The notes under the pieces are model-generated. The model had not been told where the DNA came from, did not search any database, and saw only the letters and a program-made list of their open reading frames with translations. A DNA stretch of 26,711 nucleotides from a virus: positions 1 to 26,711 of IMG/VR virus record IMGVR_UViG_3300046009_004011; one strand, written 5' to 3'. The position numbers and the translations under genes are program-made. Shown here piece after piece: positions 5,292 through 25,370 of the stretch (position 1 is its first letter; each line of letters begins with the position of its first letter).

Positions 5292-6158
5292 TCAGTCCGT
5301 TCGTCCATCGATTGCATCTCCTAGCGAGGTGAGGCCGCTGCGCTTGCGCGCCTTGGCCGACAGGTATTCCTGCGTGTCTCGGCGGCGCTTCCAGTCCGCG
5401 TACTCTTCCGCCGTGAGTTCACGGTTGGCGTCGGGCCGGAAGGTCTTCAGGACGGGCTTTGAGCCGCCTACGGTTCCGCCCTTGTCCTGAACTCTGGAGA
5501 ACCAGCGGTTGAGGAAAGCGCCCCAGTTCCGCTTGCCCGCCTTGGTGGGGTTGTCCACCAACCACGCATGGGCTCGGGCGGTCTCCAGGGTCAGGTCAAC
5601 ACCGGGGTAGGCGGCCTTCCACCGAGCGATGTCGGCGTCGGTGACTCCTCGGAATCCTTGCCCAGAATCCCAAGTCACCCGGTAGGAGCGACGAGGCTTT
5701 TGCCGAGTCGGTCCTAACTTCTCCGAAGGAGAAGTATTAAGAATATCTGATTCTGATTCTGATTCTGATTCTGATTCTCCCCTGATAACAGGGCTGTTTT
5801 CATCCTTGTTATCAATGTTGTGAACTAGGCGGGCGGCCCGAGCCTTGGCCATGGCCTCCACCTTGTTCTTGTGCTTGGTCGCCTGGGTGGCCCTCTCGGC
5901 CTCCAGGCGGGCCTGAGACAGCCGCTCTTGGCTGGTGCCCTCATCCAAGACGATTAAACGCTTCCTAACGACCGACCAGTCCGCAGGAGTACAGCCACCG
6001 GCTATCCGGCAACATGCCTCCATATCGTTCGGTAGGCCGCCTGAGTGCCATGCGTAGCAAAGCAGCCGCATGTACGCTCCAAACTGGGCAGGAGACATGT
6101 CGGCGCAACTCGCCAGAATGTCGCCCGTGTACAGGGGCATCCACACTTCGATTCCCAT
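5292..6158 (-). CDS. DUF1376-type phage replication protein
   Basis: The frame is open to 6482, but the ATG at 6158 has GGAGG eight bases upstream and starts the recognisable domain, so the protein is 288 residues. The N-terminal domain, with WMPLYTGDILASCADMSPAQ, GAYMRLLCYAWHSGGLPND and the RIAGG segment, is the DUF1376 signature of phage replication-initiation proteins. A linker with five Glu-Ser repeats follows (about residues 135-146). The C-terminal part, with DLTLETARAHAWLVDNP and NWGAFLNRWFSRVQD, is typical of replication accessory proteins that load helicase. SSB lies directly upstream. Confidence 0.75.
   Translation of the reverse strand: MGIEVWMPLYTGDILASCADMSPAQFGAYMRLLCYAWHSGGLPNDMEACCRIAGGCTPADWSVVRKRLIVLDEGTSQERLSQARLEAERATQATKHKNKVEAMAKARAARLVHNIDNKDENSPVIRGESESESESESDILNTSPSEKLGPTRQKPRRSYRVTWDSGQGFRGVTDADIARWKAAYPGVDLTLETARAHAWLVDNPTKAGKRNWGAFLNRWFSRVQDKGGTVGGSKPVLKTFRPDANRELTAEEYADWKRRRDTQEYLSAKARKRSGLTSLGDAIDGRTD
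5746..5778. repeat. TCTGAT hexanucleotide tract inside the replication gene
   Basis: Five perfect TCTGAT units plus TCT. In the minus-strand gene they encode a Glu-Ser repeat that links the two domains. Because the unit is six bases, slippage would lengthen or shorten the linker by Glu-Ser without breaking the frame. Confidence 0.85.
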
Positions 6159-6182
6159 GTCGTCTTCCTCCGTGAAAAGGTC

Positions 6183-6234
6183 CCCCGGGGGCGCGCCCGA
6201 GCCGGGGGCAAACTCAGGCGCGCCACCCCCGGGG
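6183..6234 (-). promoter_or_regulatory. Very stable GC hairpin between SSB and the replication gene
   Basis: CCCC-GGGGG-CGCGCC at 6183-6197 pairs with GGCGCG at 6217-6222, CCCCC at 6226-6230 and GGGG at 6231-6234, with a three-base bulge. That is 15 mostly G-C pairs around a 19-base loop. It starts five bases after the SSB stop. On the minus strand it is followed by GACCTTTTC, a weak T run, so it may be a leaky terminator or an RNA-stabilising 3' end that lowers expression of the replication gene. Confidence 0.5.
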
Positions 6235-6238
6235 TTGA

Positions 6239-6628
6239 TCAGAAAGGGGTCTGGTCGTTGTCCTCCCACTTCGGCCGCCGGCCGGCGCCTTGCACCACGC
6301 TCGGTGGCCGCTCGGCTGGCTGCTCCTTCGGGCCGATCAGGTTCAGGCTGTAGACGCGCACAACCATCGCTGTGCGCGGCTTGCCGTCTGCGCCGACCCA
6401 CCCATGCTCCTCCAGCTTGCCGGAGACAGCGACCTTCTTGCCCTTGGTCAGCAATGGAAGAAGGTTTTGGTGCGGCCCCCAATGCTCACATGTGACCCAT
6501 GTGGTTTCGTCTTTGCCGCGCCCGCTGATGCCGACGCGGTAGCGTGCCTTCAACTCGCCGTTTATGTCCTTGGTCTCGGCATCGCCGCCAAGGTTCCCTG
6601 TGAAGTTGATGCTGTTCAGGTCAGACAT
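6239..6628 (-). CDS. ssb: Single-stranded DNA-binding protein
   Basis: The ATG at 6628 with AGGAGG six bases upstream gives 129 residues. The OB-fold is recognisable: INFTGNLGGDAETKDING at the start, YRVGISGRGK, TTWVTCEHWG, then LTKGKKVAVSGKLEEHGW and a last strand RVYSLNLIG. After a Pro- and Arg-rich linker the protein ends WEDNDQTPF, an acidic tip with Pro-Phe that matches the SSB C-terminal docking peptide for partner proteins. It coats ssDNA in replication and annealing. It overlaps the ERF gene by 8 bases, so SSB, annealing protein and exonuclease form one recombination operon. Confidence 0.9.
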   Translation of the reverse strand: MSDLNSINFTGNLGGDAETKDINGELKARYRVGISGRGKDETTWVTCEHWGPHQNLLPLLTKGKKVAVSGKLEEHGWVGADGKPRTAMVVRVYSLNLIGPKEQPAERPPSVVQGAGRRPKWEDNDQTPF

Positions 6629-7253
6629 TGATCGCCTCCTTGTCAAACGCCCTGTCGAATGCGTCCTGCGCACGCTGCGCAAGCCCCGCATCGATCTCCT
6701 TCCGCTTGGCTCGCAGTTGCACCTTGGCCAACGCCTTGGTTGCAGCCGCCTCATCACCAGAGTCAATCGCCTTCCGCAGTTCAGCCTCGGCAGTCATCCC
6801 GGCTGCAATCTGGCGGGAGCGATCCTGCACCTTCTCCTGCTTCTGATCCACGGCAGAGTTGCCATCGTCATCGGCCTCACCGCTGACGCATCCCGTGAGC
6901 ATCACGGTGACAATGCGCGTGGCGTAGGTGATCGCACCCTTCAGCGACTGCATGTCCTGCTTGGCGAACAGGAGCGGCACCGTCGCCGTCTTTGCACTGC
7001 CGTCCTTGTGGGCCAGCGTCCCCTCAAACATCAGTCCATGCTCAGTGGTGACGATGTCGCACTGCACCGGAGAAAATCCCTCCGATGTGAGTGCGGCAGA
7101 GGTCGCCTCATCGATGTCTTGGAGCGTGCTGTAAGGACTCCCCTGCGGATGCAGTTGGCTTTTGAAGAAAGGATTCTTCCCAGACTGCTTAACGACTTTG
7201 AACTTGGCCTTGGCCCTCGCAAGAGCCTCGGCATAGGAATTTGCGGCACTCAT
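6621..7253 (-). CDS. ERF-family single-strand annealing protein
   Basis: The ATG at 7253 has GGAGG seven bases upstream and overlaps the exonuclease stop as TGATG, giving 210 residues. The N-terminal domain has ALARAKAKFKVVKQSGKNPF, then YSTLQDIDEATSAALTSEG, a strand with HKDGSAKTATVPLLFAKQD, and SLKGAITYATRIVTVMLTGC. These follow the order of the ERF superfamily (P22 Erf and relatives), ring-forming proteins that anneal complementary strands. The C-terminal half is helical and charged (DEAAATKALAKVQLRAKRKE) and is likely an oligomerisation or partner-binding part. It works with the exonuclease and SSB next to it. Confidence 0.85.
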   Translation of the reverse strand: MSAANSYAEALARAKAKFKVVKQSGKNPFFKSQLHPQGSPYSTLQDIDEATSAALTSEGFSPVQCDIVTTEHGLMFEGTLAHKDGSAKTATVPLLFAKQDMQSLKGAITYATRIVTVMLTGCVSGEADDDGNSAVDQKQEKVQDRSRQIAAGMTAEAELRKAIDSGDEAAATKALAKVQLRAKRKEIDAGLAQRAQDAFDRAFDKEAINV

Positions 7254-8098
7254 CAGAACACCTCCGTTGTCTTGCGAACCCACTCTGGAATCTCCAGTTC
7301 CTTCACGCTGCCGTGATCTAGGGGCAGATACTCCCCGGTCTCACGGCGAAGACGAATCAGATCCATGGCGTTCCGCATCCGCTCGCCGCACTCAGCGACA
7401 TAGTCCTGCGGCAGCAGATAGACCTCGCACCAGAACGGCGGCACGGTGCTGACGAACAAGAACGGCATGCGAAACTGCTGCATGCCGAACTCACGGGCGA
7501 CCGCGCAGTACAGCCACTCTTGCTCCCCGTAATGGAAGCTCTTCACGCTCTTGGCGATCTGAGACTTGGGGGCGCTGGTGGTTTTCAAATCCCACCACAA
7601 CGTCTCCGTTTCGCCGTCAGGCCGGACCTTCACCGCGTGGCCAGAGACTGTGGCGAAGTAGGAGTTCTGCGTGGCGACCGTGTCTTCGATAAGCGACCAC
7701 CCGTAGGTGTGCTTGCGAAGCGAGTCCAGCATGCGCTGGAACTTCCAGTACTCCTCCTCAGAGCAAGGGATCTTGTCGGTCTGCTTGGCGAGCCATTCCT
7801 TGTAGTCCTTGGTGGATCTGGCGCCGTTCTTGCCCAGCACCTCCGGCGGCGGAATGGCCACCTGTTCGCCCAGCCCCTTGCCGGCGATCACGCCCATCAC
7901 TAGGGCGTCAAACTGTGACCCCAGCGTGGTGGCGGAACTGCCGGGGAAGATGGACAGACCTTCGTCCAAATACTCCTGCACTTCGCCGCCCCCGTCACCG
8001 CAGGAGCAAATAAAAGACCGGCTCAGCTCCGGCCGGGACAGGTAGTCCCGCATCGACATGCCCGAGACCTTCTCAGGCAGAGTAGCAACAGTGGTCAT
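7253..8098 (-). CDS. RecE-like exonuclease, PD-(D/E)xK fold (DUF3799 type)
   Basis: The ATG at 8098 lies seven bases after GGGAGG, giving 281 residues; the longer open frame upstream crosses a terminator and is not used. Typical features are MSMRDYLSRPELS at the start, LGSQFDALVMG (about residues 60-70), KVRPDGETETLWWDLKTTS with the D-x-K active-site strand, and the helix KSFHYGEQEWLYCAVA with the conserved Tyr and Gln. These match the putative exodeoxyribonuclease VIII family that resects duplex DNA to feed an annealing protein. The His usual in the F-H-A-L segment appears as Asp. Next in the operon is the ERF protein. Confidence 0.8.
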   Translation of the reverse strand: MTTVATLPEKVSGMSMRDYLSRPELSRSFICSCGDGGGEVQEYLDEGLSIFPGSSATTLGSQFDALVMGVIAGKGLGEQVAIPPPEVLGKNGARSTKDYKEWLAKQTDKIPCSEEEYWKFQRMLDSLRKHTYGWSLIEDTVATQNSYFATVSGHAVKVRPDGETETLWWDLKTTSAPKSQIAKSVKSFHYGEQEWLYCAVAREFGMQQFRMPFLFVSTVPPFWCEVYLLPQDYVAECGERMRNAMDLIRLRRETGEYLPLDHGSVKELEIPEWVRKTTEVF

Positions 8099-8114
8099 CC
8101 GTATACCTCCCGTG

Positions 8115-8136
8115 AAAAAAGCCCCGTCCTTGGGGC
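8115..8136 (-). terminator. Rho-independent terminator in front of the exonuclease operon
   Basis: On the minus strand GCCCC (complement of 8132-8136), a six-base loop, GGGGC (complement of 8121-8125) and then six T residues (complement of 8115-8120). It ends about 16 bases before the exonuclease start and right before its ribosome site. It would stop RNA made leftward from the attP/integrase area, so expression of the recombination operon may need antitermination or attenuation control. No separate promoter is obvious between it and the gene. Confidence 0.7.
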
Positions 8137-8279
8137 GAAGCGATCCATCAGCCCGTCCGTGGGCGGAACACTTCCTGTGCGAGGACGCGGAACTGTCCAA
8201 CGGCGAGAAGGCCGAGGACGAGTTCCGCCTGAAAGAGAAAGAGGCAGACGGCAAGAAGTACCGGCTGGGCAATCCGTAG
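8130..8279 (+). CDS. Possible small charged plus-strand ORF
   Basis: A plus-strand frame from TTG at 8130 (or GTG at 8112) to TAG at 8279 reads as a charged protein with RPWAEHFLCEDAELSNGEKA and then EDEFRLKEKEADGKKYRLG. The high Glu and Lys content and GC-ending codons look like a real gene. No ribosome site fits either start, and the 5' part lies over the terminator of the opposite strand. The stop falls in a 7-bp hairpin (GCAATCC at 8269-8275 with GGATTGC at 8279-8285). It would be a small gene ahead of the integrase; held as tentative. Confidence 0.25.
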   Translation: MGRSDPSARPWAEHFLCEDAELSNGEKAEDEFRLKEKEADGKKYRLGNP

Positions 8280-18423: not shown

Positions 18424-19206
18424 TCATGGATAAGTGTCTTTTGCGGCCAGCGTGTAGGTTGGCACCGCAACGGTGACGCTGATTGAAATCGTTTCGTTTG
18501 TCGTACTGGGCACAAACTCCCCATCTACGCACGCATAAGTGGTCACCGGAATTGTGGTAGACCCGGTGCCCGTCACGTTCTTTGTGCCGGAGTTAAGTTG
18601 GTAACCGCCCCCGCCGCCGCCACCTCCGCCGAACGGCGGCTGTGGCACTGGGAACGGTATTGGCACAGGAACTGGGAATCCCGACGCTTCCCCGGCCGCA
18701 CCGGCGCGGCCCTGCGGCCCGGCGGGGCCGGCTACGGGGCGGCCGTTGATATTTGTCACATTGATGTTGGTGGTGTTGACGTTATTCGTATTCACCGTGT
18801 TGGAATACGAATTCTGGGTGATGAAGTCGCCCCCGTTGAAGACGTTAGGGCCACCCTGATACGTGTTGACGGTCTGCTGCGGGTTGAACGGGAAACTAAA
18901 AGAATCCCCGCCGTAGTTGTTGGTAGTGAATCCGCCAGGGCCGCCCCAACCAGGAAGGACGACCTGTCCGGCGCCCAAGCCTTCCAGGTAGGGCAGGATG
19001 TTGTAGTACTCGGTTGGGTTCCACTGGCCGCCGCCAAAGTATCCCGGGCCTGACTGACGCGGCGGCGGCGGAGAGAAGTTCACCATGCCGCGGTGGGTCA
19101 GCGGTTGATTGCAATTGCCGAGAGCCTGAACAAGCGCCCGCGTGGCCTGTTCTGGCAGAACTCCTTGTAGTGCGTTGACAAGGGACGGTATCGTCTGCGT
19201 AAGCAC
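18424..19206 (-). CDS. Collagen-like, Gly/Asn-rich tail fibre candidate
   Basis: The GTG at 19206 overlaps the hub stop as TAGTG, with GGAGG ten bases before. Three kinds of low-complexity parts follow a helical start: an Asn-rich stretch (SYSNTVNTNNVNTTNINVTN, about residues 133-152), a short collagen-like GPAGPQGRAGAAGEASG (about 161-177), then Pro- and Val-rich PVPVPIPFPVPQPP and a run of nine or more glycines. The C-terminal part is beta-rich (SGTKNVTGTGSTTIPVTTYA). Such collagen-like plus beta-strand designs are common in trimeric phage fibres and decoration proteins. Coupling to the hub gene suggests it attaches to the tail. Confidence 0.5.
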   Translation of the reverse strand: MLTQTIPSLVNALQGVLPEQATRALVQALGNCNQPLTHRGMVNFSPPPPRQSGPGYFGGGQWNPTEYYNILPYLEGLGAGQVVLPGWGGPGGFTTNNYGGDSFSFPFNPQQTVNTYQGGPNVFNGGDFITQNSYSNTVNTNNVNTTNINVTNINGRPVAGPAGPQGRAGAAGEASGFPVPVPIPFPVPQPPFGGGGGGGGGYQLNSGTKNVTGTGSTTIPVTTYACVDGEFVPSTTNETISISVTVAVPTYTLAAKDTYP

Positions 19207-21809
19207 TACCCGGCGCCCTCCACTCTCACGGAGTACAGGGTCACCGGATCGGTCGTTTGCGTGCCAGCAACCTCAATTGCCACCTCGCGGTCTCCGCCAG
19301 CAGATCCCTCATCAACCCTGCCCGCAAGGCTGGCCGTGGCCGTGCCGGTGGCGTCTCCTAGCGGAGACCGAGTCGCCGCCATGTTCAGCGTGGACTCCGT
19401 GGACCCGGTGTCTGTGACGAACCCTGTTCCTCGGTTTGTAGCGGCGGCGTTCTTGCGAGGGGCAGCCGCATTGTTGTAGTAGACCCGCAGCCGCAACGTG
19501 GAATCGGACGCGGTGGGGTTGTATCCAAAAGTCACAGACCGGCTGCCGCGCTCCGTGGACATTTCGTAGTTGCCAGTGCGCAGGCGATACTCCACTCCAG
19601 TGGTGCCGTCTTGCGTGCCCGAGAACCGGGCGAAGGATGCGTTGTTGAGCGCCGAGAGTTCTAGCCGCCGCCCCGACACAACCACGGGGCATGTGGCAGT
19701 AACTGCGTTTGCATAGGACTCCTGCCACCACGCCTTCGTCGCCACGCAATAGCACAGGGCCTTGGTGGGCTCCGTGTCATTTGGCCCGCAGTAATAGAAG
19801 CGCACGGTTTTGGTGCTGTATTCGGCGCGCACATGGCACTTGGCGGATTGGGCAAAGTTGATGGTCCCGTCACGCCAGAGGTTGTCCACGGCGACAGAGA
19901 TAGATTCCTCGCCCTGCCCGTCGAACGCATACATGCCGGTCCCGTCTGCAATGAAGGCCACGCCGTCCATTACATCCCAGCAGCGGCTGTTCAGAATGCC
20001 CCTGTACGCCACCAGAATGATCGACGCATCGATCACCGGCTGGGCCACGTAGGTGAGCTTGTACAGGTGGAAGTTCTGCGCCAGGATCAAATATCCCCCC
20101 AACGGGATGAGGGCCACCAGCTTGTCGGGGTCGCCAGTGTTTTCTTGGATGACAAGTTCGTTGGCGAGCGGCACCGACTCTGGCTCATCAACCTCTGAGT
20201 AGTACAGCGAATTGGGCTTCTGCCCCGTGGAGTCCACGGCGTACCACGCGCGGTCCTGGAACATGCAGCCGACGCTCATCTCGCCGGGAGGTATTTCAAA
20301 TCGACGCGCATTGATCTGACCGGACGGCAGCGTGATCGGCATCAGGCCGTAGCCATCTCGGCTGGAGTCAATGAGCTGCGAGTCCGATAGGTTGTCGGCG
20401 TAGTCTGTTGGGTAATTTCCGCCTGCCTTGTACAGGGTAGTCACGCGGAACAGCACCACCGACTGGTCGGCGGTCGTTCGCCACAACTCAACGGCGTGCG
20501 CTCTGGCGTCTAGGTTGGGGTGCGAGAAGTTCCACCGAAGAGACCCCGAGCCACCAGGGATCTCAAGCTCCGCCAGTTCCGAGATGGAGGAGGCAAGCGG
20601 CCCGCCATTGGATGCCGGAGTGTTGTCCACGTAACGAATGGCGCACAAATATTTGCCGCGCAGGGGCTGGGTCAGCTCCGCCTCCACAATCGCCCGCGTG
20701 TCCTCAATGGCCGCGGTGGGAGGGAGCCTGTACTGACCGCCGTTGATCACGGTCACGCCAGAGACGTTGCCCGTGGAGTTGACCGTGGAGGAAACGACAG
20801 CGCCGGTCCCAAACGGGTCCGAAGTGTGAGCCCGAATGTTGATGATGGGAGGCGAGAAATATCCAGTCCCACTGGTGGCGACGTTCACGGACGCCACCTC
20901 AAACAGCATGCCCAATGTCACCACCGCCCCGCTGCCGCCGCCGCCCGTCACGGCCAATGTGGTTCCGGTCGTTGTGGCTCCCGTTCCGGCGGCAGTGATG
21001 ACTACGCCGCTGAGTTTGCCATCTACTCCAACATTAAAGTACGCGTATGCGTCTGTGAGCCCCTTGTTTGTGCCGAACACAGCGTATGGGGCCGTAGTGG
21101 CGTTGGCGGTGTATCCGGTGCCTGGATTCAGGATTTGGATAGTGCCGGCGCGTCCGGTAACGCTCACCGTGAACGCTGCGGTCTCGCCCATGCCGCCAGA
21201 GAGGGATACCGTTGGTGTCGCCTGATACCCGGAGCCGCGGTCGATGAGCTTTATGGCCGACACTCGCCCATTAACGACTTCGGCCCGCGCTACCGCAGTG
21301 CGGCCGGCGGTTGGCGTGCCGCCAGAAATAACAACCGTTGGCTCGCGGGCGTACCCATTGCCCGCGGTCAGAATGTGGATGGTTTTGATTTCCGTGGCGC
21401 CACCCGTGGCGCTGGCCGTGAGCGATATGGTGCCAGCGTGCTTGGCCACCCCAATCGGATGGGCGGTTGTCGAAGAGGCGTCCCACCGGATTCCTCTCCC
21501 CATGCCGTCCACTCCGTAGACGACGCTCTGCCGCCCTTTGAAGAACGACATCGGGGCAATCGAACCCGTATACGGATATGCCGTTGCGGCAGCGCCAGTC
21601 CCACCGCCGCCAGCAAACGTCACGCCCACGGAGGCCGTAAGCCCGGTGCCGGCGTTCTGCACCGCCACAGAATCCACCGCCGTTCCGGCCATGCTGACAA
21701 TGAGAACGGCATTGCCTGCCGTAGCGGTGGGGGCCTGGGTGTATCCGGTGCCACCGCTGGTGACCAAGACCTTCGCCACTCCACCTGTCGTCCGCGCGGA
21801 GAGTGTCAT
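19206..21809 (-). CDS. Tail hub / stabilisation-type protein, main part, with GTGY repeats
   Basis: The 867-residue protein contains a podoviral tail-hub-like body from about residue 375: GKYLCAIRYVDNTPAS, then HAVELWRTTADQSVVLFRVT, NSLYYSEVDEPESVPL, YLILAQNFHLYKLTYV and MDGVAFIADGTGMYAF. This resembles P22 gp10-type hub or needle-stabilising proteins. A further hub-like piece, KGRQSVVYGVDGMGRGIRWD, lies near residues 91-110. Between these are modules of the type GTGYTQAP (21), NGYAREPTVVISGG (151), GSGYQATPTVSLSGG (192), GTGYTANAT (230) and GTGYFSPP (314), which look like inserted beta-strand repeats. The missing N-terminus is probably the 85-residue gene just upstream, joined by TGATG. Confidence 0.6.
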   Translation of the reverse strand: MTLSARTTGGVAKVLVTSGGTGYTQAPTATAGNAVLIVSMAGTAVDSVAVQNAGTGLTASVGVTFAGGGGTGAAATAYPYTGSIAPMSFFKGRQSVVYGVDGMGRGIRWDASSTTAHPIGVAKHAGTISLTASATGGATEIKTIHILTAGNGYAREPTVVISGGTPTAGRTAVARAEVVNGRVSAIKLIDRGSGYQATPTVSLSGGMGETAAFTVSVTGRAGTIQILNPGTGYTANATTAPYAVFGTNKGLTDAYAYFNVGVDGKLSGVVITAAGTGATTTGTTLAVTGGGGSGAVVTLGMLFEVASVNVATSGTGYFSPPIINIRAHTSDPFGTGAVVSSTVNSTGNVSGVTVINGGQYRLPPTAAIEDTRAIVEAELTQPLRGKYLCAIRYVDNTPASNGGPLASSISELAELEIPGGSGSLRWNFSHPNLDARAHAVELWRTTADQSVVLFRVTTLYKAGGNYPTDYADNLSDSQLIDSSRDGYGLMPITLPSGQINARRFEIPPGEMSVGCMFQDRAWYAVDSTGQKPNSLYYSEVDEPESVPLANELVIQENTGDPDKLVALIPLGGYLILAQNFHLYKLTYVAQPVIDASIILVAYRGILNSRCWDVMDGVAFIADGTGMYAFDGQGEESISVAVDNLWRDGTINFAQSAKCHVRAEYSTKTVRFYYCGPNDTEPTKALCYCVATKAWWQESYANAVTATCPVVVSGRRLELSALNNASFARFSGTQDGTTGVEYRLRTGNYEMSTERGSRSVTFGYNPTASDSTLRLRVYYNNAAAPRKNAAATNRGTGFVTDTGSTESTLNMAATRSPLGDATGTATASLAGRVDEGSAGGDREVAIEVAGTQTTDPVTLYSVRVEGAG

Positions 21810-22066
21810 CAGGTCACACCATTAGACACACGCACCACGCCATCGGCCGTTTGGAAGATGACGCGGTCCTGTGTGCCGGGGACACGCATGGCGGATCGGA
21901 CGGTCCCGCCAACGGTGCCGAGCGTTACGGCCGCCAGACCGGGCCTGACAGTTATCTGCCCGGGAGAGATGATCTGAAGATTGACCTGGGTGACCGCAGC
22001 CCCAGGAGGGAGCGAGTACGGAGACGCATTGGTCACCAGCCCCGCCCACTTGTCGATGGTGATCAT
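21809..22066 (-). CDS. Tail hub N-terminal segment encoded separately, 85 aa
   Basis: The ATG at 22066 overlaps the adaptor stop as ATGA. The sequence DKWAGLVTNASPYSLPPGAA followed by TQVNLQIISPGQITVRPG matches the usual N-terminus of the podoviral hub family, where it is joined to the beta-propeller body. Here a stop codon ends it after RVSNGVT, and the next gene starts in TGATG. It may work as a separate chain that packs with the 867-residue protein, or be fused to it by frameshifting. The family link is from motif recall. Confidence 0.6.
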   Translation of the reverse strand: MITIDKWAGLVTNASPYSLPPGAAVTQVNLQIISPGQITVRPGLAAVTLGTVGGTVRSAMRVPGTQDRVIFQTADGVVRVSNGVT

Positions 22067-23205
22067 ATTCCGCCGTCCACCTTCAGCGGGCTGCGCCACC
22101 CGCCGTCTGTGTAGATGTGCCGCGTACGGCCGGAGAGCGGAGCCATCTGATCACGCTCCAGGGCGAGACGAAGGTCACGCTGGTACAGTTGGAACTTCTT
22201 GTCTTCGTCCTTGCCCCTGATCCGCGCAAGGTAATACTGGCACGCGGAGTCCATCACACGCTCCATGTGTGGGGCAACGTCGATGGGGTCGGTGAGAAGA
22301 ACGGCGCGGGTGCCAGAAACGGATGCGGACATTCGGTGTGTGGTCAGGCCACGGTCGCCGTTGCGCGTCAACACCACGCCTTCCGCGTCGTAAGGCGTCA
22401 GCGATTCAATGGAACCAGGAAACACGGAAGCCGCCGATCCAAACCGCACCACGGAGCCGACGCAGTCGGAAGGGGCAGCAGGGATCGGGGCAACCCAGCC
22501 CAGGTCGGCGCCTTCGTCCTGAACGGTCACGGATGAGAAACGCGCTGCCGACTCATGCCCGGAGTATTTGATCGGCCGCGCACTGCGGCGGTACATAAAA
22601 TCCACCGTCTCCACACGGGTCGGGTAGCCGATGAGCTTCAGCACCCACCCGCTGCCGTCAGGGTCGGGCAGGACCGTCCAGTGGTATGGGAGACCAGTTG
22701 ACCGGGCGACCCGTTCGATCTTTAGCGCTTCGTCTGGGGACACGTACAGGCCGGACGACCAGTTGTATTCGCTGGTGGGTTCGTCCAGATTGCGGAAATC
22801 ACTGGGGAGCGGATACAGGATGCGGTAGATGACATAGGGCTGGGCGGTCAGCGTCTCGGGGAAGGTGACGCCGGACTTCAGCGTCAGAACGGTGCCAGAC
22901 ACGCGCGTCTGCACGGAGGCGATCCGCGTGCCGACCCGAACGTGGCCGTACTCCGCCCAGGCAGGCCATGTTCCACCGGACAGCGTGAGCGCGCGGGTGG
23001 AAGTGTTGTAGGACACCGTGCCAGTCTGGTACGGCGCATCGGTTATCACCCGGCCGTGGGTCTGGTAGTAGTTCCAGTCACGGAGGGTCGTCAACTCATC
23101 GTACGCACGGTGGATCGCCGTGCGGATGTCCCGCTGCTCGGCGTCCTGGGCGCCGCCGTAGGAGGAGACGATGAGGGATTCTACGGCGTCAAAGTACGTG
23201 TACAT
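22063..23205 (-). CDS. Head-tail adaptor / tail tubular A-like protein
   Basis: The 380-residue protein has an N-terminal helix pair with RTAIHRAYDELTTLRDWNYY and a beta-rich domain with TGTVSYNTSTRALTLSGGTW. Then come ILYPLPSDFRNLDEPTSEYN and LYVSPDEALKIERVARSTG, followed by VETVDFMYRRSARPI. The C-terminal helix includes RVMDSACQYYLARIRGKDED. This order is that of short-tailed phage connector proteins that sit between portal and hub. Its place directly before the hub gene agrees. The start ATG at 23205 has no strong ribosome site. A 50-base gap separates it from the next gene upstream. Confidence 0.65.
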   Translation of the reverse strand: MYTYFDAVESLIVSSYGGAQDAEQRDIRTAIHRAYDELTTLRDWNYYQTHGRVITDAPYQTGTVSYNTSTRALTLSGGTWPAWAEYGHVRVGTRIASVQTRVSGTVLTLKSGVTFPETLTAQPYVIYRILYPLPSDFRNLDEPTSEYNWSSGLYVSPDEALKIERVARSTGLPYHWTVLPDPDGSGWVLKLIGYPTRVETVDFMYRRSARPIKYSGHESAARFSSVTVQDEGADLGWVAPIPAAPSDCVGSVVRFGSAASVFPGSIESLTPYDAEGVVLTRNGDRGLTTHRMSASVSGTRAVLLTDPIDVAPHMERVMDSACQYYLARIRGKDEDKKFQLYQRDLRLALERDQMAPLSGRTRHIYTDGGWRSPLKVDGGI

Positions 23206-23255: not shown

Positions 23256-23603
23256 TCACGGGATCGTCGGCTCCGGCGGCAGCAACGCCACCGCATCGGC
23301 AAACTGGATCACCTCCACGCTGGCGTTCAGCACCGTCTTGTCCGCAGCCTCCCACATGGCGTGGAGCATTCCTCCGGGTTGCACTTCCGTGAGAACGTCG
23401 GCGCACAGCATCAGCCTGCCGTCGGTCAGCGCCACAGGTACAGGTTTGCACTTGTTGCTGCCGTGAAGTTGCCACAGTTCGCCCAGCCGCGCCGCCAGTT
23501 GCGGCGTGAATACCAGCGCCAGTACGCGAGACTCATCGTAGGTGATGGGGCGCGGATTGCCGTCCTCGTCGGTCAGGCTGGAGAGCAGTTGCCCTAGTGT
23601 CAT
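23256..23603 (-). CDS. Hypothetical protein, 115 aa
   Basis: The ATG at 23603 overlaps the fibre stop as ATGA. The protein starts MTLGQLLSSLTDEDGNPRPI and has a beta-rich middle with VPVALTDGRLMLCADVL and a helical segment MLHAMWEAADKTVLNASV. No family is recognised. Its position between the fibre and the adaptor suggests a small tail or neck protein or a fibre chaperone. Directly after it, a GTG-started 15-codon frame (23259-23212) lies in a GTGA overlap and fills the gap before the adaptor; whether it is read is unknown. Confidence 0.55.
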   Translation of the reverse strand: MTLGQLLSSLTDEDGNPRPITYDESRVLALVFTPQLAARLGELWQLHGSNKCKPVPVALTDGRLMLCADVLTEVQPGGMLHAMWEAADKTVLNASVEVIQFADAVALLPPEPTIP

Positions 23604-25213
23604 GGAATTGCGGCTCCAATGGCGGTGTAGAGCGCCGATACGCGGCTATCAAGCGTGGCGAGCGGCAGAGACTCGCCAATGCTATAAAAAGCGACTCGCC
23701 CGTTAGAAAAACTGACATTATTGGGTATGCCAAGAACAAACTGGTTGGTGCTAGTCGGAGTCAGCGAAGCGACTGGCTGGTTGGCGGATGTCGCGCCGGC
23801 AATTCGATACACAAAATTAGCCGACTCGCTTCTGTTGATTCCTATAAAACCAGTGCTGTCTGCGGAGTTGGATAGTTGGGCGACGTTTTGGCTGCGACTC
23901 CGAAAGTATGTGATGCTGGACTGAACGCCGCCAGATGAGATGTTTCGCACAATCCCAGTCATGCCGTCAGACCCGTGGGCAGAACCGATGTAAATGGGAT
24001 ACTGGCCCGCCGTGGGGTTGCCCGTGCTGGTATGCGCGGTTGTCACATAAACAGCAACGTGCTGGCTGTCTTTCAGGTCTGCTGCGTCACTGCGGTTCGT
24101 ATTCAGCGACTTGTTTGTGGCGTTACCAACCAACCCAGTTTTTCGGCTGTAGTCGCCGCTAACGAAATTGTTGTTCACATTCGTCGGCCCACTGCCGACC
24201 AGCGGCGTCAACGCACCAGGCAACGTGCGCGCGCCCATCAGGATGCAAGAGGCTTTGATAGACGACCAGATGCCGTCTGCCTTGCAGCCGGTGACGAAGT
24301 TGTTGATGGCGTTCGCCACCCCCACTTCGACGCCAGTGCCGCCATCTGCGGTTGCGACCGCGCTGAGGTAAGCCAGCGCGTCGGCGTCGGTCGGCAAGGT
24401 CTGCGAGCCGAAGCCGGGAAAACTCGCCGCGTATGGGTGGGTGTAGGGGAGGGCCGACTGAGACCCCCAAGTCCACGCTAGGTAGCCTTCGACTGCGGCG
24501 AGTTCCGTATCATTTAGCGCCCTGTTGTAGATCAACAGCGAACCAAATGGGCCATTGAAACTTTGCCCAGTAGGAGCGCAAAAGCCAAGCGTCAGGACGT
24601 TTATGCTGTTTGAGCCAGAGTTGCCCGTGGCAACTTGCTGACCATTCGCCCGCAATCTGGCGGAAGCGCCGTTGTAGACGCCAGTCACCACAGACCATGC
24701 CGTATTGGCCGCGACGTTGTTTTGACCGACTGCTGGGCCGGTCATAAAAAGTTCGCCGTTGTATGACGCTGCGCCTCCAGAGTTCCAGCCGAGGAGAATC
24801 CGATTGGACGCCGTGTTGCCGCCCGTTCCGCTTGGCCCGTCAATGATCCAAGCCGTGCGGGATGGCGATACGCCGGAAGCAGGATTGTTTTCGTATGAAC
24901 CAGCAAACAAGATTGTGAATGGTTGCGACAAACTTATTGCGTCAGTCACTAGGATGTCATTTGTGCTGTCAAAGGTCACAACATTCTTCCCATTTCTCCC
25001 GGCGGCTGTGTACGCTGGACGAAATGTGCTGTTTGTTTGAGATGCCTTCAGTGACGAGCCAGACACCTTGCTTATCCACTCACTGACTGAACCGCTCACT
25101 GTCGTTATTGTGTTGGAGTCGCTAGCGTCCAGCCACAACTGAAGCCCAGCGATGCTGCGCGGATCGAATCCGACCTTCGCTCGGGGCCGCAGCAAACGTG
25201 GTGACATTGGCAT
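23600..25213 (-). CDS. LamG/concanavalin-like tail fibre or receptor-binding protein
   Basis: The ATG at 25213 follows AGGA by nine bases; the frame open upstream to 25360 overlaps other genes and is not used. The protein has 537 residues. After a basic start, SIAGLQLWLDASDSNTITT opens a lectin-like jelly-roll domain typical of phage adhesins, with GKNVVTFDSTNDILV, a central WSVVTGVYNGASARLRANGQ, LGFCAPTGQSFNGPFGSLLI and YNRALNDTELAAVEGYL. A second similar domain may follow from about residue 330. The DNA looks less GC-rich than its neighbours, as expected for an exchanged receptor-binding gene. Confidence 0.65.
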   Translation of the reverse strand: MPMSPRLLRPRAKVGFDPRSIAGLQLWLDASDSNTITTVSGSVSEWISKVSGSSLKASQTNSTFRPAYTAAGRNGKNVVTFDSTNDILVTDAISLSQPFTILFAGSYENNPASGVSPSRTAWIIDGPSGTGGNTASNRILLGWNSGGAASYNGELFMTGPAVGQNNVAANTAWSVVTGVYNGASARLRANGQQVATGNSGSNSINVLTLGFCAPTGQSFNGPFGSLLIYNRALNDTELAAVEGYLAWTWGSQSALPYTHPYAASFPGFGSQTLPTDADALAYLSAVATADGGTGVEVGVANAINNFVTGCKADGIWSSIKASCILMGARTLPGALTPLVGSGPTNVNNNFVSGDYSRKTGLVGNATNKSLNTNRSDAADLKDSQHVAVYVTTAHTSTGNPTAGQYPIYIGSAHGSDGMTGIVRNISSGGVQSSITYFRSRSQNVAQLSNSADSTGFIGINRSESANFVYRIAGATSANQPVASLTPTSTNQFVLGIPNNVSFSNGRVAFYSIGESLPLATLDSRVSALYTAIGAAIP

Positions 25214-25244
25214 GGTCAGGATTCCTGCTAGATCACTTCGACCG

Positions 25245-25370
25245 TCACCGGCTCGCTGTACGGCCCAGCGCCAGCTCGCCCTCTTCCAGCTCATTGGTGG
25301 ATGGCGTGTCGGCCGAGGTGGTGGATGTGCGGACGCGGACGATTCCGCGCTCGGGGACAAGGAATGCCAC
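25245..25370 (-). CDS. Small virion-type protein, possibly frameshifted, 41 aa
   Basis: The GTG at 25370 lies seven bases after AAGGG and follows the stop of the 108-residue gene. The protein starts VAFLVPERGIVRVRTSTTSA and has NELEEGELALG, close to the E-G-E-L-A-(I/L)-N motif found near the start of many phage structural and fibre proteins. The frame ends at 25245. In the -1 frame, from the same point, the reading GPYSEPVTVEVI continues to a stop at 25228, directly before the fibre ribosome site. That looks like the original C-terminus. A one-base deletion or -1 frameshift near CTGGGCC is possible. Confidence 0.45.
   Translation of the reverse strand: MAFLVPERGIVRVRTSTTSADTPSTNELEEGELALGRTASR

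Follow-up and report, generated by a model that had tools for sequence, protein, structure and literature searches.

A probable two-chain tail nozzle with GTGY and Fn3 modules at the break in a family of uncultured short-tailed phages

The gene pair and its surroundings

The window (the whole stretch of DNA analysed, 26,711 nt) is a 26.7-kb virus record; many related contigs are 57–62 kb. On its minus strand a short gene (chain A) is followed by a long one (chain B), with an overlap of one base (TGATG), in which the last base of the TGA of A opens the ATG of B, placing B in the -1 frame relative to A. The features of the locus, in order of transcription, are:

22063..23205, minus strand: 380-aa gene before A, putative adaptor by position and look only
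21809..22066, minus strand: chain A, putative 85-aa N-terminal nozzle chain plus stop (ORF reading; conserved in relatives)
21807..21811, minus strand: TGATG, stop of A overlapping start of B (frame relation common to 67 of 68 distinct junctions)
19206..21809, minus strand: chain B, predicted 867-aa nozzle body plus stop (AF2, Foldseek, phrog_3287)
21573..21788, minus strand: first GTGY module, B residues ~8–79 (GxGY motif; absent from module-free split relatives)
21441..21554, minus strand: blade piece between the insertions, B residues ~86–123, SFFKGR..YGVDGMGRGIRW (conserved; modelled strands)
20670..21431, minus strand: second insertion with GTGY repeats, B residues ~127–380 (four GxGY motifs)
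19209..20660, minus strand: rest of the predicted hub, B residues ~384–867 (Fn3-like stretch, further blades, C-terminal part)

Chain A carries a hub motif (KWAGLVTNASPY..PPGAAVTQVN..PGQ..VRPG) followed by three strands. Overlaps of 1–4 bases join most neighbouring genes of the operon, including the 380-aa gene, which ends inside the start of A and is conserved next to A in relatives; the A/B junction therefore resembles the gene junctions usual in this phage. Profile searches with the 380-aa protein gave no significant match to solved adaptors in the PDB, and weak matches to PHROG tail families. Directly after B, and overlapping its stop, lies a gene (18424–19206, minus strand) whose 260-aa product contains runs of glycine and, over a short distance, collagen-like sequence (GPAGPQGRAGAAG); this product matched no family. 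A sequence-only reading had described the two genes as a tail hub split into an 85- and an 867-residue part, and both genes do lie at the place it gave.

Within B residues 1–380 there are five exact G-x-G-Y motifs, at position 20 in the first module and at 150, 192, 230 and 314 in the second insertion, against an expectation of 0.53 in composition shuffles (five reached in 0 of 5,000), as anticipated by the earlier count of at least five GTGY-type repeats. The repeat region matches cyanophage structural proteins in public records (27–42% identity) as well as PHROG families of tail, baseplate, neck and fibre proteins, so the GTGY repeats are of a known type. The cyanophage proteins that share them (neck, baseplate wedge and other structural proteins) place them in myovirus necks and baseplates, whereas here they are inserted in what appears to be a podophage nozzle. 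An AF2 model of B, built on 43 aligned relatives (mean pLDDT 86, pTM 0.69), has strands in the blade piece at residues 88–91, 97–100 and 107–109 and a strand-rich body from ~383, matching the hub-like pieces previously proposed at ~85–120 and from 375. Homologues also confirm the proposed expansion of the hub at two places; the hub motifs flanking the second insertion lie ~280–455 residues apart in relatives. Five relatives (L019, L028, L038, L073 and L084) have a different insert of ~65 residues in the first module (B ~70–150), lacking GTGY motifs, and in two of these (L019 and L028) the following blade contains an additional loop insert.

Chain B and known podophage nozzles

In short-tailed phages the nozzle is a hexamer below the adaptor that closes the DNA channel and gates DNA. 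When the model of B was compared with the PDB (Foldseek), ranks 1–20 were all podophage tail entries, with SU10 at the top (E 8.9e-15), Pa223 fifth, the T7 gp12 and P22 gp10 nozzles/hubs at ranks 9–20, and cyanophage A4, crAss001, VP1, Sf6, Pam1, GP4 and others also present, pointing to the beta-propeller nozzle fold. In BFVD a fold search found 237 matches with E no greater than 0.001, several of them named P22 Gp10. Whole-chain TM-scores to nozzles are low (0.2–0.3 by query length), as expected from a multi-domain chain with two insertions, and assignment of this fold is thus based on the ranking jointly with a profile match: phrog_3287, the single-ORF nozzle family of LUZ24, SU10, Vp_R1, IME234, LAh_6, GAP52 and Ss1, matches B of the window (E 3e-7) and all 40 of the B cores scanned. 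A search (hmmsearch) with the Pa223 nozzle (9nwi_Y) gave E 0.0023. No match to the hub core of B was obtained among cultured phages by tblastn at E up to 10, and sequence searches detected no similarity to T7 gp12 or P22 gp10. Taken together, these results support a tail nozzle (hub) fold of short-tailed phages for B. The earlier identification of the 867-residue gene as the hub body is upheld by the Foldseek ranking, and homologues without hub similarity were looked for and none was found. Sequence homology to the nozzle family (phrog_3287) holds for B and not for A.

All solved nozzle structures met in this analysis consist of one chain each, and the pair described here departs from them. 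SU10 gp17 (Kuravirus) and the LUZ24/Pa223-type nozzles have the same fold (Foldseek) and belong to the same phrog_3287 as B, but are single chains where two genes are present here; T7 gp12 and P22 gp10, which match B in fold, are likewise single chains, unlike the pair. When a profile of single-chain nozzles built without SU10 was aligned to SU10 gp17, residues 1–104 matched profile positions 1–98 and the alignment resumed at residue 519, which puts the beginning of the large SU10 insertion at about residue 104, close to where the 85-residue A ends. In SU10 a string of four Ig-like nozzle domains, inserted near the same place as the A/B break, opens the propeller between its second and third blades; the first two of these domains form the tail tip (PMC9509320). 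Compared with SU10, LUZ24 and Pa223, the new ends bear GTGY or Fn3 modules in place of Ig-like domains, and a second GTGY insertion lies downstream. In T7 gp12 a 45-residue N-terminus gives three strands that complete the platform, and an opening of the propeller leads to the nozzle tip (PMC6702177).

Conservation of the break and the single-frame relative

Relatives were gathered by scans of viral contigs, including an additional scan with the LUZ24 nozzle, and by a genome scan, and 68 distinct junctions were classified by a motif script. Some loci were left unassigned by the motif of the script; many of these read as split with a looser motif, and others carry part of the pair only. In 67 of the 68 distinct junctions B is in the same frame relative to A, with stop and start overlapping (TAATG, 24; ATGA, 18; TGATG, 10; GTGA, 8; TTGA, 7). 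In the remaining one (L069; TGACATG) B is in another frame, one base after the stop. Two genes are present in every junction read except that of L257 (below). In most relatives the final codons of A contain a Shine-Dalgarno-like sequence serving B, with a median of -5.7 versus -2.4 kcal/mol; the window has no such sequence there (-2.8 kcal/mol). As in translationally coupled gene pairs, the stop overlaps the start, in the window as elsewhere, and translational coupling is the simplest reading of the junction.

Inserting one base before the stop would join the two frames in the window, as expected if the break were a sequencing or assembly error or a mark of a decaying gene. This reading is scarcely credible and was rejected: the same break is found in dozens of contigs whose proteins are 40–60% identical, an identical junction is present in another contig (L033), and omega of chain A is 0–0.12 in 14 close pairs, a range that indicates purifying selection on A. 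The near-constant -1 relation (67 of 68 junctions) could also be taken to mean that a programmed -1 frameshift shortly before A ends yields a full-length A-B nozzle, the short A being a termination product. We consider this very improbable and rejected it because no conserved slippery heptamer was found at the junctions, because the frame of B is open for only 1–4 codons ahead of its start in several relatives, including the window, and because the frame relation in L069 argues against frameshifting. Ribosome sites precede the start of B, overlaps of 1–4 bases are usual in this operon, and in L093 and other relatives long A proteins intervene with the junction kept; all three speak against frameshifting as well.

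The exception, L257, has one 818-aa frame between the same neighbours that matches both A and B. Over its residues 1–57 it shares 61% identity with chain A of L150 (1e-16), and over residues 24–815 it shares 47% with B of the window (45–47% with B over the remainder); neither the final ~30 residues of A nor the first repeat module are present. The frame of L257 thus carries parts of both chains, implying that A and B belong to one nozzle protein. The sequence-only reading had called for comparison with unsplit relatives, and its proposal of a hub divided in two is confirmed by the homologues, L257 uniting both regions in a single ORF. The tree nests L257 within the split family, with L061, itself split, as its sister (99/97), and L257 is therefore best read as a secondary fusion; since it is a single contig it may also be an assembly artefact.

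In an AF2 model of A alone (pLDDT 61) residues 1–45 have no structure, and strands are found at 56–62, 68–73 and 78–82, as expected for a strand donor; this arrangement fits the T7 gp12/SU10 nozzle plan. A profile comparison of A with the N-termini of single-chain nozzles was not better than column shuffles, so its placement is based on L257, gene order and shape. Hits of A in the PDB (aspartokinase, E 0.06) were considered to be chance matches. The lack of a significant profile match would also suit an A that has become a separate small tail protein, descended from a nozzle N-terminus but leaving the subunit of B without its contribution, e.g. forming its own ring or acting as a chaperone; large Fn3 additions in some relatives indicate that A can carry functions of its own, and L257 does without its last ~30 residues. 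However, the N-terminal half of A is covalently part of the nozzle in L257, residues 1–45 do not fold alone in AF2, and within the pair conservation is highest in the core of A, which always adjoins B. A separate protein of this kind seems unlikely to us, and A as the N-terminal part of the nozzle is preferred.

No earlier report of a split nozzle was found in a non-exhaustive check of open-access papers. The sole match of the genome scan, L193, comes from a Pirellulaceae MAG contig and is also split; it contains frameshifts throughout, and served for this observation alone. Its location is a possible but weak hint of the host.

Modules on the new ends and a proposed two-chain nozzle

The first GTGY module of B is present in most relatives, but absent from several that are nevertheless split (L020, L095, L150, L164, L170, L173, L177 and the L209–L217 group). 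Under midpoint rooting these module-free lineages are the outer branches of the tree, so the split probably preceded the module, subject to the root. Some relatives without repeats or Fn3 domains are still split, making the split independent of the repeats, and the idea that repeat insertion caused it was dropped, as the split is also found where the first repeat is missing. The hub had earlier been described as invaded by repeats: the insertion is real, but it is an event separate from the split and not its cause.

On the other side of the break, six distinct junctions (L069, L093, L187, L188, L189 and L191) have a long chain A (~1,190–1,320 aa), consisting of the hub motif and ~1,100 aa of Fn3 domains, with 6–7 Pfam Fn3 matches in each of the three scanned (L069, L093 and L191). 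Arrays of Fn3 domains are likewise found in other phage tail proteins, from which those described here differ in being joined to an 85–100-residue nozzle piece. At its end, chain A of L191 has a weak match, below the Pfam cut-off, to the lectin-like Laminin_G_3.

These observations point to a two-chain tail nozzle of a short-tailed phage, made by tandem translation and joining of the chains, with modules carried at the break, and we regard this as the probable identity of the pair. After translating A and terminating at its TGA, ribosomes would reinitiate on the same message at the ATG that overlaps it and so produce B, a restart that we infer from the overlap and the ribosome sites. The two chains would then join into one nozzle subunit, presumably assembling as a hexamer, in which the first ~45 residues of A would give N-terminal strands to a platform completed by B, and residues ~50–85 would give strands to the propeller. 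The break would lie near the propeller opening through which other podophages extend cell-facing nozzle domains, leaving two free ends: the N-terminus of B, which usually bears the GTGY module, and the C-terminus of A, bearing the string of Fn3 domains in some relatives. The decorated break probably faces the host cell at the tail end, and the GTGY and Fn3 modules would probably lie around the tail tip, acting as spacers or in contact with the cell. The sequence-only reading had proposed that the repeats could add receptor-binding surface to the tail axis, a role that they may have.

The split itself might be functional, the strand-donating A serving the nozzle both as a removable latch and as a plug-in anchor, its C-terminus accepting large adhesin-like Fn3 arrays, so that host contact at the tail tip might pull on or free the strands keeping propeller and platform closed and thereby trigger ejection; as an extension of the two-chain nozzle this is speculative and, in our estimate, improbable. 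If a two-chain nozzle is present throughout the family, for which the single-chain relative provides a natural control, it would indicate that a nozzle tolerates a cut close to its distal opening, and that ends created in this way may serve as sites of domain gain. If A does donate strands to B, it would offer a separable handle on how nozzles stay shut. For annotation, a small gene before such a body would be a candidate for the missing nozzle N-terminus.

Elsewhere in the window (all genes on the minus strand), a 586-aa protein encoded two genes upstream of A (23600–25360) has a Laminin_G_3 domain (Pfam E 6e-9), and its second half strongly matches phrog_17104, a family of unknown function (E 4e-71). 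Further genes encode an Exonuclease VIII-like protein (7253–8272; phrog_412, E 3e-30), a primosomal/DUF1376 protein (5292–6482; phrog_3992, E 2e-11) and a 213-aa protein (2255–2896) matching phrog_3704, annotated as ferredoxin, auxiliary metabolic (E 1e-33). A perfect tandem repeat of TCTGAT (5.5 copies) is present at 5746–5778.
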